Below are positions 10,348 through 50,766 of a stretch of DNA of 64,000 nucleotides, piece after piece. A program made the translations under genes and the position numbers. Within the stretch, counting starts at the first letter, position 1. Each line of letters opens with the position of its first letter. This stretch comes from Capsulimonadaceae bacterium (GTDB lineage: Bacteria; Armatimonadota; Armatimonadia; Armatimonadales; Capsulimonadaceae): the NCBI GenBank assembly GCA_031292625.1, contig JARLGU010000015.1, positions 124,001 to 188,000 on the forward strand, in the 5' to 3' direction. Below the pieces are notes generated by a model that was not told where the DNA came from, ran no database searches, and saw only the letters and a list, made by a program, of their open reading frames with translations.

Positions 10348-10368
10348 GATCGTCGAGAGATTGCCGTA

Positions 10369-12483
<2,115 letters not shown>

Positions 12484-18715: not shown

Positions 18716-20581
18716 TCAGCCTTTCGCAGCAGGCGCCGTCGGCGGTTGCTGCTCATCCCGCGCTGGCGCGGGGGCGTTCTGCGGCACGGTTGCCGGCGAC
18801 GTTGTTGACGATGTCACCGTAATCCATCCTTGCTCGCCGGTCCAGGTGATGAAGGTGGAGGCAAGACCGTCTTCATCCGTTACGAGAGTCGTCTGGTCGG
18901 CGCTCCCGCCGGTCACTACAACGGCGAGCGGCATATGGGCTCCCGGTGAACCCGACGACCCAGTCACGCGAATCAGCAATTTCGTGCGTCTCGGCAACGA
19001 CTGCGAATCAAAGAGCTTCAGCGATGCCGTAAATGCTTCCGATGGCGCGGCCGGACCGACCACGGATAGGTTTGTTGTGACTCTCTGTCCATCTAACAGA
19101 GCGCTTGCTTCTCCGGTTCCAGGGCGCAGAGCGTGGAACACGCCATCTTGGGTAACGTAGCCGACGCCGTTTGTTGCTGGTCCTGACCACACGACGCGCG
19201 GATCGGATCCGTCTATGATTGTTCCATGTGATCGGCACTTTAGCGGACAAGTCGCTCCAACGGTCACCGGTGCATCGGGGGGCATTATCAATGCGTCCGT
19301 TCCCGCTGGCGTCGACGAAGCGGGCGCATGAACGAGCAGGGCGTCCGCAACTCGACGTTCGCCGGTGCCCTGGTTGGGGTAGTTGACCGTTAGCCCACGG
19401 ATGGCCATGGTTGTCGATCCGCCGCCGTCGAGATTGATCGCGTTCACGGCTCCGAATCGCAACAGAATGCCCGCCAAATCCAGCAAGGACACGCCGGCGC
19501 TGACGCCCGGTTTGCCTTCTACGGTGACGAGCAGAACTTTGCCGTCTTGCGTCGCACCCACGGCCGTGCGGGGGTGGGGACCTTCGGCGAAGCCATCGTC
19601 GAAGCCCTCAGCTGCGGCGTCGATGTCGATGCGCCCATTGGTCAGCAATTTGGGGCCGCCGCCTACGCCTGTTGAAGCGTTGCCCCAGAGGAGCGCATTG
19701 CGGTTTAAACTGGACGAACGGCTTGTGCTGGCCGCGCTGGCTGCGGCGGTTGACATTGCGAGGCGAGACGCATCGCTCAGGTCTGCATACGGCGCTATGG
19801 CCGCGATGAAATGGATGACGTCTCCTGGCGAAAGCGTGCGTAGGAAGTCGCCGGCCGCTCCGTGCGACGTCGCCGCAATTACGAGACCGTCATCAGGGAT
19901 GGTGGTTTGGACGTTGCTCGCCGGGCAAACGCTGTCCACCGTTCCGACAATCAACTTGTTCGGCTGAATCGGGAGGTTGACACCCTTGACTACGACTTCC
20001 ATCGCGCCAGGCCGAGCCCCTGAAGTTGGGCCATAGAGCTGAGAGTAGACGACCAGATCGGGCCGGTCGGCCCGTGTGAGAGGCCGGTCGATCGCGTTGA
20101 CGGCGACGCGGCCCGGTTTGCCCTCGACGGAAAGATCGCCGGAATACGATAGCACAGAAAAGAATGGCGATCGTCCCGACGCGTCGAGACCGAACGCCGC
20201 CCGCGCGGTTGTCCACGGTTCCGAATAGAGTTCGGATTGTGAGATGCCAAGGCCAAGCGGATCGCCCGTACCGCCGAAATAATCGGCGTTTACGCCCGCG
20301 ATAGCGGTTGTTCTCTCGACTAAGGCGCGAACGGTATCGCGTCCATTGCTTGCGTTGCCCGTACCGGATGTAATCGATCCGCCCGTAATGGCTGCGTCAA
20401 TACGCACGCCAGGAACATTGAGGTCGATGGAAAGAACATTGATCGTGAGGCTGGAACCGATCTCCTGGGTATAGACTACGCCAGGTGCGAGCTGCTTCGC
20501 AATGGATGGGGCTGCGCTCAGCTCATCTCCGCGCGCAACGACGGCAAATACGACCAACACAAGCAGGGGGAACCACCTCAT
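18716..20581 (-). CDS. Secreted phosphodiester glycosidase-like (NAGPA/DUF2233) protein
   Basis: The 621-residue protein has a cleavable signal peptide (about 1-18, MRWFPLLVLVVFAVVARG). The domain at about 75-420 matches the phosphodiester glycosidase (NAGPA) family, shown by AIAGVNADYFGG, PHPRTAVGATQDGKVLLVTVEGK and the near-invariant INLDGGGSTTMAIRG. Family members remove or modify sugar residues, including exopolysaccharide, at a phosphodiester. The C-terminal part (about 440-600) looks like two Ig-like beta-sandwich domains, followed by a Pro/Ala-rich tail. Its substrate here is unknown, and a role in exopolysaccharide processing is inference. Confidence 0.82.
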   Translation of the reverse strand: MRWFPLLVLVVFAVVARGDELSAAPSIAKQLAPGVVYTQEIGSSLTINVLSIDLNVPGVRIDAAITGGSITSGTGNASNGRDTVRALVERTTAIAGVNADYFGGTGDPLGLGISQSELYSEPWTTARAAFGLDASGRSPFFSVLSYSGDLSVEGKPGRVAVNAIDRPLTRADRPDLVVYSQLYGPTSGARPGAMEVVVKGVNLPIQPNKLIVGTVDSVCPASNVQTTIPDDGLVIAATSHGAAGDFLRTLSPGDVIHFIAAIAPYADLSDASRLAMSTAAASAASTSRSSSLNRNALLWGNASTGVGGGPKLLTNGRIDIDAAAEGFDDGFAEGPHPRTAVGATQDGKVLLVTVEGKPGVSAGVSLLDLAGILLRFGAVNAINLDGGGSTTMAIRGLTVNYPNQGTGERRVADALLVHAPASSTPAGTDALIMPPDAPVTVGATCPLKCRSHGTIIDGSDPRVVWSGPATNGVGYVTQDGVFHALRPGTGEASALLDGQRVTTNLSVVGPAAPSEAFTASLKLFDSQSLPRRTKLLIRVTGSSGSPGAHMPLAVVVTGGSADQTTLVTDEDGLASTFITWTGEQGWITVTSSTTSPATVPQNAPAPARDEQQPPTAPAAKG

Positions 20582-22048: not shown

Positions 22049-22147
22049 TTAATCAATTCGGCGGCGGATGAGTAGAACGAGATAAAGGAGAACCAGCAGC
22101 AGCGCGGCATCAAAGATATACTTGAGGACGCCAAATAGGACATTCAT
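22049..22147 (-). CDS. 32-residue single-span membrane microprotein
   Basis: ATG 22147 overlaps the stop codon of the FHA gene (ATGA), which suggests translational coupling. The predicted peptide has a polar start (MNVLFGVLKYIFDAA), a strongly hydrophobic run LLLVLLYLVLLI and a basic tail RRRID, the layout of a single-span inner-membrane protein with a cytoplasmic C-terminus. Its position in the murJ-FHA operon suggests a small accessory subunit in envelope control (inference). It is too short for routine gene calling. I do not know a family for it. Confidence 0.6.
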   Translation of the reverse strand: MNVLFGVLKYIFDAALLLVLLYLVLLIRRRID

Positions 22148-23322
22148 TGTTTCGTCCCGTCCGGCGCGACAAAGGTGAATAAAGAGGCGCCGAGCTCGAT
22201 GCTGTCGCCATCTTGTAAGCGGATGCGCTCATCGCCAATCACCGGCCGGCCGTTTACCTTCGTCGTCTGCTTGCCAGAGACATCCTGAATGTAGTAATTA
22301 ACTCCATCGGGGGATACGATTGTCGCCTGGCGGATCGAGGAAAGATCATCGTCAAGGACGACATCGCACGTAACCCCGCGGCCAATCAGCGTCTCGGAGC
22401 CCATGGTCGTCGCTGGCGCGCCCACGGCGGGGGCAAGTTTCGCGCGCGAGACCGCTGCTGGGATCGCGGACGGGATGACGCTTGAAGCCTGAGGCGCGGC
22501 AACGAGCTCTTGTTGGAAGACCATTGTCGTGCCGCCGATAACGATCTCATCGCCGTCGTTAAGCGTGACATTGCCGTCAATCAGGCGTCCGTTGACGATG
22601 ACGCCGTTTGTGCTGCCCAGGTCGTAAATTGTCGCCTTGCCGTCAGATTCGCGTTCGATGCGCGCATGTTTCTTGGAGACCTGTCCGTCGCCGGACAGTA
22701 TCAGATGGTTGCCTGCTTGTTTGGAGCGTCCGATGTGAAATTCGGGCGTCGAGATCGTCGTCAGGCTTCGTCTTCCATCACTGTGCGCAATGACGAGCGC
22801 CGCCCAAGATACCTGGTCGCCTGCGATCGTGAGATCTTCCGCGCCGTCGTCGTCCTGGATCGGCCGGACGGCAGCCACGGTAAGGAGGTCGTCTTCTTCG
22901 GCAGGTTGAACGGGCTGGGGCGCGGGAGTCGGTTCGGTCGCGGGCGCTTTTCCGAACCGTGCCTTTACACGAAGCTTCTCGTCGGATTCTTCCGGATCGG
23001 TGTCGACGATCGTAAAGTCGAGAGGGCCTCGCGCGGAGTAGCCATTTTGCGCCATATAGCGCTGGAGCACGCCGGTAAGCTCTTCTTCGTCGAGAAACGA
23101 CAAGAGGTATTCGCGTTCATCGGGGTCCGAGACGCCGAGTTCCAGGACGTACTTGTTGGGGACGTAGATCTTGCCGTCGAAGCCTTCGCTCCGGTTCTCC
23201 TCCATGGCGTCGAGGATGCGGCGCAGGACATCCTTAGGCCGGAGAGCCTGTGAGCCGTCGTCGCCAAAGAGGCGCTCATACCAGCGTCCAAACTTTTGAT
23301 GAAATCTTTCGAATATGTCCAT
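22144..23322 (-). CDS. FhaA-like protein: DUF3662 domain plus two FHA domains
   Basis: The 392-residue protein starts with a DUF3662 (FhaA N-terminal) domain (1-125, with FHQKFGRWYERLFG), then an acidic Pro-rich linker, then two FHA domains. The first (about 173-270) has all phosphothreonine-binding hallmarks: GRS at 198, SKKH at 216 and GSTNG at 236. The second (about 305-386) has GRG at 314 but Gln in place of the conserved His (SSIRQ, 328-332) and no GSTNG, so it may not bind phosphothreonine. In actinobacteria FhaA binds phosphorylated MviN/MurJ to control peptidoglycan synthesis, and murJ is directly upstream here. The gene lies 16 nt after murJ. Confidence 0.85.
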   Translation of the reverse strand: MDIFERFHQKFGRWYERLFGDDGSQALRPKDVLRRILDAMEENRSEGFDGKIYVPNKYVLELGVSDPDEREYLLSFLDEEELTGVLQRYMAQNGYSARGPLDFTIVDTDPEESDEKLRVKARFGKAPATEPTPAPQPVQPAEEDDLLTVAAVRPIQDDDGAEDLTIAGDQVSWAALVIAHSDGRRSLTTISTPEFHIGRSKQAGNHLILSGDGQVSKKHARIERESDGKATIYDLGSTNGVIVNGRLIDGNVTLNDGDEIVIGGTTMVFQQELVAAPQASSVIPSAIPAAVSRAKLAPAVGAPATTMGSETLIGRGVTCDVVLDDDLSSIRQATIVSPDGVNYYIQDVSGKQTTKVNGRPVIGDERIRLQDGDSIELGASLFTFVAPDGTKQ

Positions 23323-23338: not shown

Positions 23339-25105
23339 CTAACCCGCTGCCTTTTGGATTCTTAGACGCACAAGAATGGGGCGAAGCTTCGATGAGGCCA
23401 TGCGGGCGAGGTCGTCAAGCTCAGCCATCTTGAAGTATTTCGCAAGCCCGCAGTATGCCGCCAGTGCAATTGAGCCGCTAAAAATAATCTCGGCAATGCC
23501 GTGAAGCGTAACATGTTTTTCGGGAGTGGGCCATGCGATATTGAACGCGAACTGGGAGACGTAAGCGCCCACGCAAAGCAACGCTGTCGCAATGACGATG
23601 CGAACGATTGCGATGGTGAGCAGTCTGTCTTCAATGTCCTTGAGGCGCCTGTGCAGGAGCGTAATCAAGATTAACATATAGATTGTCGCGGCCAGTGTCG
23701 TGCAAAGCGCGATGCCCTCGATCGCAAGAACGGGATGCGCGCCTACCCCAAAGTGCGCCACTACGACATTTTGAACGAACGTTTGCCATGACGTGACGGG
23801 CTGGTCCCATATCGGGACGCCTCCCGCCGCTAAGTGGACGACGATCAGGTTCAACAGGATCAGCAGGCCGGTCATCCAGCGTCCGGTGCGTACAGGCGTG
23901 CGAGTGTCGTGGAGCGCGTAAAATCCCCGGACCAGAATCGCCTGACACGACCACGCGAAAATGCCAAGCGCATAGAACCGGAGCGCGGCGGCTGTGATTT
24001 CGGCGTCGACCGCGTGGAAATTGTGGCGTTGATAGAGAACCTGAACGAGCGGCAGGGCCAGAATGAACATCAATGCGGACGATGGCACGGTGAGGAAGAG
24101 AATCGTGCGCAAGGTTTTTGACGTTGTTTGGCGGAACTTTTTCATCGCCCCGGCCGCGGTGTGCCGAGACATCGCGGGCAGAACGGCGATGGACATTGCC
24201 TGCGCGAAGATGCCGATCGGAATCAGCATGCACCGGTTTGCAAGCGTGAGCGCCGTTTGACCGCCGTGCGGCAGCATGGAAGCGAAGCTGCGCATAATGA
24301 TCTGGTCGACGTTCGGCAACGCCATGCCGAACATGATAGGCAAGAGCATCGCCCATACCTGCGATACGCCGGGATGACGCCAGTTGAGGCTAAACCGATA
24401 GCGCATTCCCAGCTTGGCGGAGGCGATAGCCTGAATGAGGAAGTTGCCGACGAACGCGCCGCCCAGCGCTCCCCACATCAGAGCCCGCATTCCGCCGAAA
24501 GGCCCGGTATCGTTGGGATGGGCCAGCAAAGCGCCTATGATAATGCCAATGTTGTAGATGCTTGGTCCAAGCGCCGGAACGAGCATTCGGTTGCGCGCGT
24601 TTAGGGAGCCCATCAGCAAACTGCCGACAATGAAGAAGAACTGGGCGGGAAGGACGATCCGCGCGAGGTAGATGGTCTTGTCTATCTGATCCGCGGTGTA
24701 GCCCAGGTTCATGAATGCGACAAGCTGCGGAGTAAAAATCTCCATAAGCACGATTGCCGCAGTCGTTACAATGGCAATAATGCTGCCGACGATGGAGAAG
24801 ACTTCCCAGGCTCCCTTTTCGTCGCCATCGTGCAGATACTTGGTAAAGATCGGAATAAATGTCGAGGAGATAGCCCCGCCCGCCACGAGATACATGAGCA
24901 TGTCGGGGATGCTGAACGCCGCATTGTAAGCATCGGTGTTTGCGGTTCGGCCGAACTGCGCGGCCACAACCATGTCGCGAACCATGCCCAGGAGGCGCGA
25001 GGCGATCACGGCCATCACCATGATGAATGCGGCGCCGCCGATACTGCCTTGCTTGTAATTCGCCGTCGTCTGTTTGTCCGTCGTAGTCAAAGTGGGGGCC
25101 GCCAT
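23339..25105 (-). CDS. murJ: Lipid II flippase MurJ (MviN family)
   Basis: The 588-residue polytopic membrane protein belongs to the MATE-like MviN/MurJ family. It shows ASRLLGMVRDMVVAAQFG, YNAAFSIPDMLMYLVAGGAISSTFIPIFT and VLPAMSRHTA, and has about 14 hydrophobic segments. It moves the peptidoglycan precursor lipid II across the inner membrane. ATG 25105 lies 10 nt after the -10 box and within an 11-bp inverted repeat, so the message is probably leaderless and possibly regulated there. It heads an operon with the FHA protein and the microprotein. Confidence 0.95.
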   Translation of the reverse strand: MAAPTLTTTDKQTTANYKQGSIGGAAFIMVMAVIASRLLGMVRDMVVAAQFGRTANTDAYNAAFSIPDMLMYLVAGGAISSTFIPIFTKYLHDGDEKGAWEVFSIVGSIIAIVTTAAIVLMEIFTPQLVAFMNLGYTADQIDKTIYLARIVLPAQFFFIVGSLLMGSLNARNRMLVPALGPSIYNIGIIIGALLAHPNDTGPFGGMRALMWGALGGAFVGNFLIQAIASAKLGMRYRFSLNWRHPGVSQVWAMLLPIMFGMALPNVDQIIMRSFASMLPHGGQTALTLANRCMLIPIGIFAQAMSIAVLPAMSRHTAAGAMKKFRQTTSKTLRTILFLTVPSSALMFILALPLVQVLYQRHNFHAVDAEITAAALRFYALGIFAWSCQAILVRGFYALHDTRTPVRTGRWMTGLLILLNLIVVHLAAGGVPIWDQPVTSWQTFVQNVVVAHFGVGAHPVLAIEGIALCTTLAATIYMLILITLLHRRLKDIEDRLLTIAIVRIVIATALLCVGAYVSQFAFNIAWPTPEKHVTLHGIAEIIFSGSIALAAYCGLAKYFKMAELDDLARMASSKLRPILVRLRIQKAAG

Positions 25106-25145
25106 ACTGGGCTCTAGTATGGCGGCTGGCCGGTGTTCGTGTCAA
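25098..25145 (-). promoter_or_regulatory. murJ promoter with an 11-bp inverted repeat over -10 box and start codon
   Basis: On the minus strand TTGACA (25145-25140), an 18-bp spacer and CATACT (25121-25116) precede the ATG at 25105 by 10 nt. The arms GCCGCCATACT (25098-25108) and AGTATGGCGGC (25116-25126) are a perfect inverted repeat with a 7-nt spacer. It covers both the -10 box and the start codon. Confidence 0.65.
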
Positions 25146-25170: not shown

Positions 25171-26172
25171 TTAGCGTGCCGCTGCGCGGTGCGAATACTC
25201 GCAGAGCAGGCTGACGTAGACTCGGTAATTCTCCAGCGTTACGCCTGGCGGGGTTTGGTGATCGACCGATACAATGAAGCCGCCGGAACGCATCACCGGC
25301 AGGAGCCGCTCGAACTCGGCGCGCATGGCAGCTTCGCCGCGCGGCATGACCATCTTGTCGTATCCGCCCATCATTGCCCAACGCGGATACTTTGCGCGGA
25401 TACGCGGAATGTCGACGCCCGCCTGGCGCTCAAGAGGGTAGACGCCATCGATTCCCGCTTCCTGCAGCCAGGGAATCATGTCCTCGATCTGTCCGTCGCT
25501 GTCGACGAGGACCGGAACGCCGGAGGATTTGATCAGAGGGATCAGTTCGTTATAGTAGGGCCGTATGAACTCATTAAAGGCGTCGCGTGAAAGCATGGGG
25601 CCGTTATTATACGACATATCCTCCGCGATGCCGACCATGTCTGGAACGAGTACGGTGAACAGCGCTTCAAGCGTGCGCTTATGAAAGGCCGCGACGTCCC
25701 GGTTCATTCGGTGCATAAGTTCCGGCTGATCGTAAAATGCGTAGAGGTGACCCTCGATGCCCAAAAGGGTGCGGGGGAACCAGAAGAAACCATCGAGCCA
25801 TACTCGAATCGCAATGTCGCCGCGCTCGTGTTTCTGTCGCAGCGATCGCGCGCGATCGAGTAACTCGTCAATTGATTTTTGAGGATAGAGATAAGGAAGC
25901 ACTGCGTCGTAGGATGCCTCGTCCGTGACGATAGCGGCTCCATGATGCGCCGGGACTGGAGTGCCAGCGCCTCTCGTATTGGCGGCTATGTTGTAAAGAG
26001 GATCGAGACCGAAATAGTGGAGGGATTCTTCCCACTCCAAACCGGCGGGAAGTCCTTGCTGTTCCCAGGCCTTGATCGTGTCGCCCCACCAGGCCGCCCA
26101 CTCGATAATGGGTAGGCGGCCTTCCGGTGCTTGAAATGTTAGTGCGCGCGTAAATCGCTCGCGTGGTGTCAT
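25171..26172 (-). CDS. Uroporphyrinogen decarboxylase-like (UroD/MtaA superfamily) protein
   Basis: The 333-residue TIM-barrel protein begins MTPRERFTRALTFQAPEG, typical of the URO-D superfamily, and continues with an EDMSYNNGPMLSRDAF stretch, PVLVDSDGQIEDMIPWL, GVYPLERQAGVDI and the C-terminal GGFIVSVDHQTPPGVTLENYR. Members outside haem synthesis are often methyltransferases or unknown enzymes; the non-haem context (PhyH-like gene, AraC regulator) makes true HemE activity unlikely. ATG 26172 has AGGAG. It is 9 nt downstream of the dioxygenase gene, so they form one operon. Confidence 0.78.
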   Translation of the reverse strand: MTPRERFTRALTFQAPEGRLPIIEWAAWWGDTIKAWEQQGLPAGLEWEESLHYFGLDPLYNIAANTRGAGTPVPAHHGAAIVTDEASYDAVLPYLYPQKSIDELLDRARSLRQKHERGDIAIRVWLDGFFWFPRTLLGIEGHLYAFYDQPELMHRMNRDVAAFHKRTLEALFTVLVPDMVGIAEDMSYNNGPMLSRDAFNEFIRPYYNELIPLIKSSGVPVLVDSDGQIEDMIPWLQEAGIDGVYPLERQAGVDIPRIRAKYPRWAMMGGYDKMVMPRGEAAMRAEFERLLPVMRSGGFIVSVDHQTPPGVTLENYRVYVSLLCEYSHRAAAR

Positions 26173-27179: not shown

Positions 27180-28151
27180 ATGAAAACCTCGCTTCTCGGG
27201 GAAACTGCGTCGGCTGGCGGCCTCAAGGTTGAGGGCGCCGCCGAGCCCATGCGCGATCTGCCTGCGTCCGTCCACGCTCCCGTGCGCACGCTGGGCATTG
27301 GAAACACCGGCGCACCATTTACGCGTGCAGCCATGCACGTCTTCCACACGGTCGTCAATGGCAACCTTGGCTGTCACGACCATACCTTCATGGAAATTGC
27401 GCTCGTAACGAGCGGGCAAGGGACGCATGTCAGTCAATCCGGTACGTTGCCGCTCGCAACGGCGGATGTGATTGTTTTGCGCCCGGGCGCGTGGCACGCC
27501 TACGTTGCTTGCGAGAATCTTGGGGTGTTTAACTGCTGCGTGAGCATGCAGTTTCTAAGCCGCGACCTTGCGTTCGCGTCCGAACAAGCCGCGCTCAACC
27601 AGTTGTTCTGGGTGAGACCGTTAGCCGGCAATAACCGGGGTGTTTTTAGTTTGCACCTCGGCGAACAGGAGAAGGCCAGCTGCGAGGAACAACTTCGGCG
27701 GGTGGTCGCATGCAATGGCAATAAGAGCGATCCCTGCAGCTTTGTCGAAGGGGTGGGGCATCTACTGATCGCCTTGAGCATCATCGGCCGTCAAATCGAG
27801 CTCGTCGACGGTGAGGCATCCGCGCAGGCGGCGCATCCCGCCGTTCTTGCGTGTCGCGCGCTGATTGAAGATCGATGTGAATACGAGTGGACGTTGGATG
27901 AGCTTGCGCAAAAAGTTCACGTTGCTCCGGAATACCTCGTGCGCATCTTTAAGCGCGACTCAGGCATTAGTCCGATCGCTTTTCTGATGCGTTGCCGGGC
28001 GGAGCGCGCGGCTCTCTTGCTCTTGCGCAGCAAGAAGTCCATTGCCGAAATTGGCGAGGAAGTGGGATGGAGCGAGCCAAGCTATTTTGCGCGCTGCTTT
28101 AAGAAGTGCTACGGAATGTCCGCATCCACATATCGCGAACGCTTTGGATAA
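27180..28151 (+). CDS. AraC-family transcriptional regulator with N-terminal cupin
   Basis: The 323-residue protein has a cupin-like sensing domain (about 50-160, with HDHTFMEIALVTSGQGTHVSQ and ADVIVLRPGAWHAY) and a C-terminal AraC DNA-binding domain (about 225-320). The latter shows two helix-turn-helix units: WTLDELAQKVHVAPEYLVRIFKR and SIAEIGEEVGWSEPSYFARCFKK. Such proteins usually sense a sugar or related small molecule. It is divergent from the PhyH/UroD-like pair and most likely controls it. Confidence 0.88.
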   Translation: MKTSLLGETASAGGLKVEGAAEPMRDLPASVHAPVRTLGIGNTGAPFTRAAMHVFHTVVNGNLGCHDHTFMEIALVTSGQGTHVSQSGTLPLATADVIVLRPGAWHAYVACENLGVFNCCVSMQFLSRDLAFASEQAALNQLFWVRPLAGNNRGVFSLHLGEQEKASCEEQLRRVVACNGNKSDPCSFVEGVGHLLIALSIIGRQIELVDGEASAQAAHPAVLACRALIEDRCEYEWTLDELAQKVHVAPEYLVRIFKRDSGISPIAFLMRCRAERAALLLLRSKKSIAEIGEEVGWSEPSYFARCFKKCYGMSASTYRERFG

Positions 28152-50756: not shown

Positions 50757-50766
50757 CTACTCGTTA

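Follow-up and report, generated by a model that had tools for sequence, protein, structure and literature searches.

What is a perfect inverted repeat doing across both the -10 box and the start codon of a gene for a lipid II flippase? The question arises in the genome of a Capsulimonadaceae bacterium, in a stretch of 64,000 nucleotides that is called the window throughout. Two arms, GCCGCCATACT (25098-25108) and AGTATGGCGGC (25116-25126), stand there on the two sides of the spacer GGGCTCT (25109-25115). An earlier note had described them as a perfect repeat of 11+7+11 bp whose arms cover the -10 box and the ATG respectively, and this is what we find: complementarity of the arms is 100%, and, from the positions of CATACT and ATG, the upstream arm on the minus strand contains the predicted -10 box and the downstream arm contains the murJ start codon.

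The murJ promoter and its genes

The features at the locus are as follows.

25171..26172, minus strand: gene of the URO-D family, same strand as murJ, with its end 65 nt upstream of the murJ ATG
25140..25145, minus strand: predicted -35 TTGACA; of the 55 murJ upstream regions that could be read (this genome's among them), 16 have a matching -35
25098..25126 (29 bp), no strand assigned: perfect inverted repeat, candidate operator, 11-bp arms and 7-bp spacer
25116..25121, minus strand: predicted -10 CATACT, within the upstream arm; relatives mostly have TATACT or TACAAT there
25105..25109, minus strand: predicted transcription start zone, placed by spacing about 7 nt past the -10, at the ATG or up to 4 nt ahead of it
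23339..25105, minus strand: murJ, lipid II flippase, with its ATG (25105-25103) within the downstream arm
22144..23322, minus strand: gene with FhaA_N and FHA domains, 16 nt past murJ

The minus strand thus reads TTGACA-18-CATACT-10-ATG. A start is called near-leaderless here when a -10-like box lies within about 7-10 nt of it, and between CATACT and the ATG there are 10 nt; the predicted promoter implies an mRNA that would start at most about 4 nt from the ATG. The box departs from TANNNT in its first base, a C, where relatives mostly have TA. Two further near-leaderless promoters occur in the window, at 20581 (minus strand, TTGACA-18-TATAAT-8-ATG) and at 50766 (plus strand, TTTACA-18-TATCAT-10-ATG). 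The identity of murJ is given by the curated equivalog model TIGR01695 (319.5 bits, cut-off 235.55), and PF03023 also matches. The FhaA_N/FHA gene and murJ are probably co-transcribed. Five of the seven family genomes have the same gene after murJ; in the two remaining ones the contig stops shortly past murJ. Mycobacterial FhaA is a binding partner of MviN, the homologue of MurJ, according to the available part of PMC11898655, and the gene pair therefore hints, by analogy, at a like partnership in another phylum.

The dyad overlaps the predicted core promoter, the position by which a candidate operator was judged. Our preferred reading, put forward tentatively and at somewhat less than an even chance, takes the palindrome for an operator specific to this lineage, superimposed on the core promoter from which a near-leaderless murJ(-fhaA) transcript would start. 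A candidate dimeric repressor would bind both arms, would thereby cover the -10 box and the start site, and would exclude RNA polymerase; promoter use, protein binding and repression by that binding are what we infer at the murJ site. In favour of this reading, the dyad is of operator size, perfect, and directly on the -10/start zone. Against it, half of each arm is already explained by the -10 box and by the ATG-Ala-Ala codons. The dyad is also consistent with a role in RNA on read-through transcripts. The regulator genes near murJ amount to one AraC-type gene (27180-28151). Overall confidence in the operator account is moderate to low. If it is true, a dedicated repressor would control synthesis of the lipid II flippase in this species; titles and the opening parts of abstracts yielded no report of repressor/operator control of murJ.

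Is the palindrome repeated or conserved?

The earlier note had proposed a search for the same palindrome before other cell-wall genes. The murJ palindrome has one copy in the 5.77 Mb genome even when up to 3 mismatches are allowed, therefore a cell-wall regulon is unsupported. A degenerate palindrome search of the own genome returned 13 sites, as did its reversed control (13), and together with the single copy this rules out a regulon of identical sites. Note that a single-target operator would need no recurrence at other genes.

Is the site kept in relatives? The exact murJ palindrome, with a spacer of 4-12, is absent from 60 other genomes. Relatives were searched for by protein; a single-protein contig search found none, and an alignment-based search kept 80 of 356 loci. 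A murJ match was present in 56 of 61 genomes (5 had none), and 55 of the 56 loci were readable upstream, one being dropped for too little upstream sequence. At murJ in the relatives among these 55 genomes, the longest repeat joining the -10 box to the start is 4 bp and there is no palindrome. The comparison covers the family level and beyond, same-genus genomes not being among the 61, and over that range the operator is not conserved. The earlier note had named a lack of conservation in close relatives as grounds for giving up its proposal; at family level such a lack is what the relatives display. The palindrome is probably an isolated site for a repressor, seen up to now in this species alone.

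What relatives do keep is the promoter: TTGACA, -10 box and ATG recur at the same spacing without the symmetry. A strict promoter lies 5-30 nt before an in-frame murJ start in 16/55 genomes. In 14 of the 55, among them the own genome, the distance is 7-10 nt; in the other two of the 16 it is 20 nt, and these are the two best-scoring relatives by protein, whose leader has a GAGG Shine-Dalgarno-like word. In the remaining 39/55 no strict promoter is found that close, and the layout is thus common, not universal. The 14 near-leaderless genomes represent 10 genera (four in one genus, two in another) and should not be counted as 14 independent cases. For comparison, among 196 other genes at the loci of the relatives, 2 have a promoter at 10 nt or less; the near-leaderless layout therefore recurs far more at murJ. 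In a second, named locus set, of which several members are probably the same genomes as in the first and about half lie outside the phylum, the count is 10 of 79 readable murJ loci at 10 nt or less. These spacings suggest that the promoter beneath the palindrome is an older pattern common to related genera. The firmer by-product of the analysis is thus a near-leaderless murJ promoter kept in several genera of this phylum; among titles and abstract beginnings, no report of such a promoter in Armatimonadetes turned up.

Could the repeat have arisen by chance?

The earlier note held that a chance repeat at this exact place is unlikely. By position the palindrome is indeed remarkable; by length alone it is unremarkable. 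For length, four perfect repeats with arms of at least 11 bp and loops of 3-20 were seen in the 64-kb window, and simulated sequence gave a mean of 0.33 (first-order Markov) or 0.92 (second-order) for the same class, so that repeat length alone is weak evidence. For position, a genome sample of 440 kb was used (the window plus 20 stretches), with 287 chosen gene starts and 37 strict promoters within 200 nt. Around and after the -10 of these 37, five dyads of at least 8 bp were observed against 0.21 expected from mononucleotide shuffles, and two of at least 11 bp against 0.003. The two longest belong to murJ and to a GntR/Peripla_BP_3 regulator, the other three to a LacI gene, a second GntR/Peripla_BP_3 gene and gyrA (families by Pfam). 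Control stretches of equal length further upstream have a long repeat (13 bp) in 1/37 cases, thus upstream DNA carries long repeats elsewhere too. Since the murJ site was chosen after being noticed, these chance figures overstate the surprise.

Might the match then be a coincidence, with the -10 box (CATACT) and the start with its Ala codons (ATGGCGGC) complementary by accident at one gene? The -10 box and the ATG are each under their own constraint, as the asymmetric promoters of relatives illustrate. About one repeat of this dyad's length is expected by chance per window, and the palindrome is single-copy, unconserved and selected for its oddness. On the other side, when the -10 word and the ATG are fixed, only 6 of 200,000 simulated near-leaderless starts reach 11 bp. 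In the own-genome sample of 287 genes, scored by a slightly looser promoter rule than the strict set, promoter hits fall 5-10 nt before the start in 7 genes and at 0 in 1, the next coming from 23 nt; there should therefore be about 100 near-leaderless starts in the genome and well under 0.01 such coincidence among them. We regard an accident as somewhat unlikely.

Which protein might bind?

The repressor-site idea of the earlier note gains support from the excess of long promoter dyads over chance, because these stand mostly at GntR/LacI-type genes; it has neither recurrence nor conservation of the murJ site behind it. We examined 41 loci of GntR/LacI-type paralogues and dropped 7; 4 of these lacked an N-terminal hit, and in 3 no promoter was detected. 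Of the 34 promoters left, 13 have a dyad of at least 6 bp just after the -10 box, compared with 7 of the 37 sample promoters; since the latter include murJ and some GntR/LacI genes, the contrast is blunt. The pattern CATACT-N0-12-AGTATG has 4 genome sites (reversed control 0): two GntR/LacI-type regulator promoters, murJ, and one that by translation lies within the rnhA coding sequence. Self-operators are expected at GntR/LacI-type or LacI regulator genes.

Hybrid regulators of GntR/LacI type are expanded in this genome, with 94 matches; two family relatives have 60 and 33, and the other 18 genomes searched have at most 21. At three such loci read fully, a prepilin-like gene with an N-terminal methylation motif comes directly after the regulator (L253 3383-4213, L254 3745-4674, L255 2915-3805; one is DUF1559 by check, two by sequence). 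Two paralogues, L242 (G000:C38:188200-188770) and L134 (G000:C37:4980-5540), have perfect dyads directly behind the -10, with arms of 19 bp and 14 bp, and these may be regarded as candidate self-regulatory operators.

One special case of the operator reading names the protein. The degenerate search, among its 13 sites, gave a palindrome with the same core just after the -10 of a GntR/Peripla_BP_3 regulator on contig C64 (L083:1543-2784), and the repressor of murJ could be this GntR/LacI-type protein or its 54% paralogue on contig C46. The promoters of both regulators carry a dyad similar to that of murJ; ATACTAG-N6-GTAT has 3 genome sites, which are murJ, C64 and C46, and CATACTAG-N3-CTAGTATG with up to 2 mismatches has 2 sites in the own genome and 0 in 60 others. 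The best listed matches of the C64 regulator in 20 other genomes are 34-35% identical, which makes it appear no less lineage-specific than the murJ site, and its gene comes after pgeF, for a peptidoglycan editing factor. However, the patterns were shaped after the C64 site had been seen, and their reversed controls are not empty: that of ATACTAG-N6-GTAT gave 1, and for CATACTAG-N3-CTAGTATG at 3 mismatches 10 sites stand against 3 in the control. At C46 the symmetry of the site extends over just 4 bp. C64 and C46 do share an intact dyad, TAGTAT-N4-ATACTA, but murJ lacks that one, and the murJ dyad does not show the order GT-Nx-AC that marks the GntR consensus as given in the available part of PMC4494728. 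The pattern linking murJ, C64 and C46 is thus suggestive and post hoc, and we think it very unlikely that one of these two proteins is the repressor.

Does the palindrome act on RNA?

The earlier note had also imagined an RNA hairpin hiding the start. On the mRNA from murJ's own predicted start only one arm is left, therefore the hairpin cannot form there, and the idea applies to read-through RNA only. A hairpin on murJ's own mRNA is excluded by the predicted start, and RNA from that start folds less than shuffles do (190/200 and 200/200 shuffles fold at least as well). RNA with both arms, by contrast, reaches -19.9 kcal/mol (z -5.8, 0/200 shuffles as good).

This leads to another explanation, in which the palindrome is an insulator against read-through: RNA from the URO-D gene would fold the 11-bp hairpin and bury the murJ AUG, while the own-promoter mRNA stays open. 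The URO-D gene is a possible source of such RNA, given its strand and its end 65 nt upstream, and no terminator-like site is listed between it and murJ. The device needs one arm before and one after the predicted start, which is the geometry at murJ. But any near-leaderless promoter that carries a dyad will have that geometry, which is seen in no readable relative, and read-through into murJ is an assumption of the model. We judge the insulator unlikely. Its implication, that murJ is translated solely from the own-promoter mRNA, which starts past the first arm, seems to us equally improbable. A combined role, with the 29-bp element acting on DNA and RNA, the hairpin restricting flippase translation to the leaderless mRNA and the same site maybe also serving a repressor, appears quite unlikely.

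Could the hairpin be the intrinsic terminator of the URO-D gene? It is not, because the T run after the hairpin is missing; it is also absent among the 3 terminator-like sites listed. As for known RNA families, the search of the window gave only a TPP riboswitch, at 10358-10495 (plus strand, RF00059, 59 bits, gathering score 54.3), and none at murJ.

Comparison with known systems

In gene e of phage T4, for lysozyme, the promoter lies within a hairpin, and a short transcript without one arm is translatable while the longer RNA is not. The predicted murJ promoter likewise lies within a hairpin and would give a short transcript without one arm. The two differ in that the T4 hairpin hides a ribosome-binding site, whereas the murJ transcript would be leaderless and its read-through is hypothetical.

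As to operators, the GntR family offers a palindromic site at the promoter (PMC4494728, in the part available), as at murJ, and the own genome is rich in GntR/LacI-type self-promoter dyads; unlike those operators, the murJ dyad fails the symmetric order GT-Nx-AC, its left arm GCCGCCATACT having no GT. In the Deinococcus-Thermus phylum the -10 motif of leaderless genes adjoins the ORF (PMC12340547), and in a bacterial survey a -10 box a few nt before the start codon implies little or no 5' UTR (PMC3160421), as far as the accessible parts of these sources describe. The murJ box also stands a few nt before its start codon. Compared with the Deinococcus-Thermus genes, murJ is in another phylum, adds a -35 TTGACA, and has CATACT rather than TANNNT.

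The acuR-acuI-dddL operon of Rhodobacter sphaeroides is leaderless and has an inverted-repeat AcuR operator on its promoter, with 8-bp arms and a 6-nt spacer, a repressor site that mutation supports (PMC3017554, from the portion available). AcuR is of TetR type and encoded in its own operon, unlike the situation at murJ, where the operon has no regulator gene and the repeat has a different sequence. The two systems are alike in their arrangement, a leaderless transcript with an inverted repeat overlapping the promoter, which for murJ is predicted from sequence.
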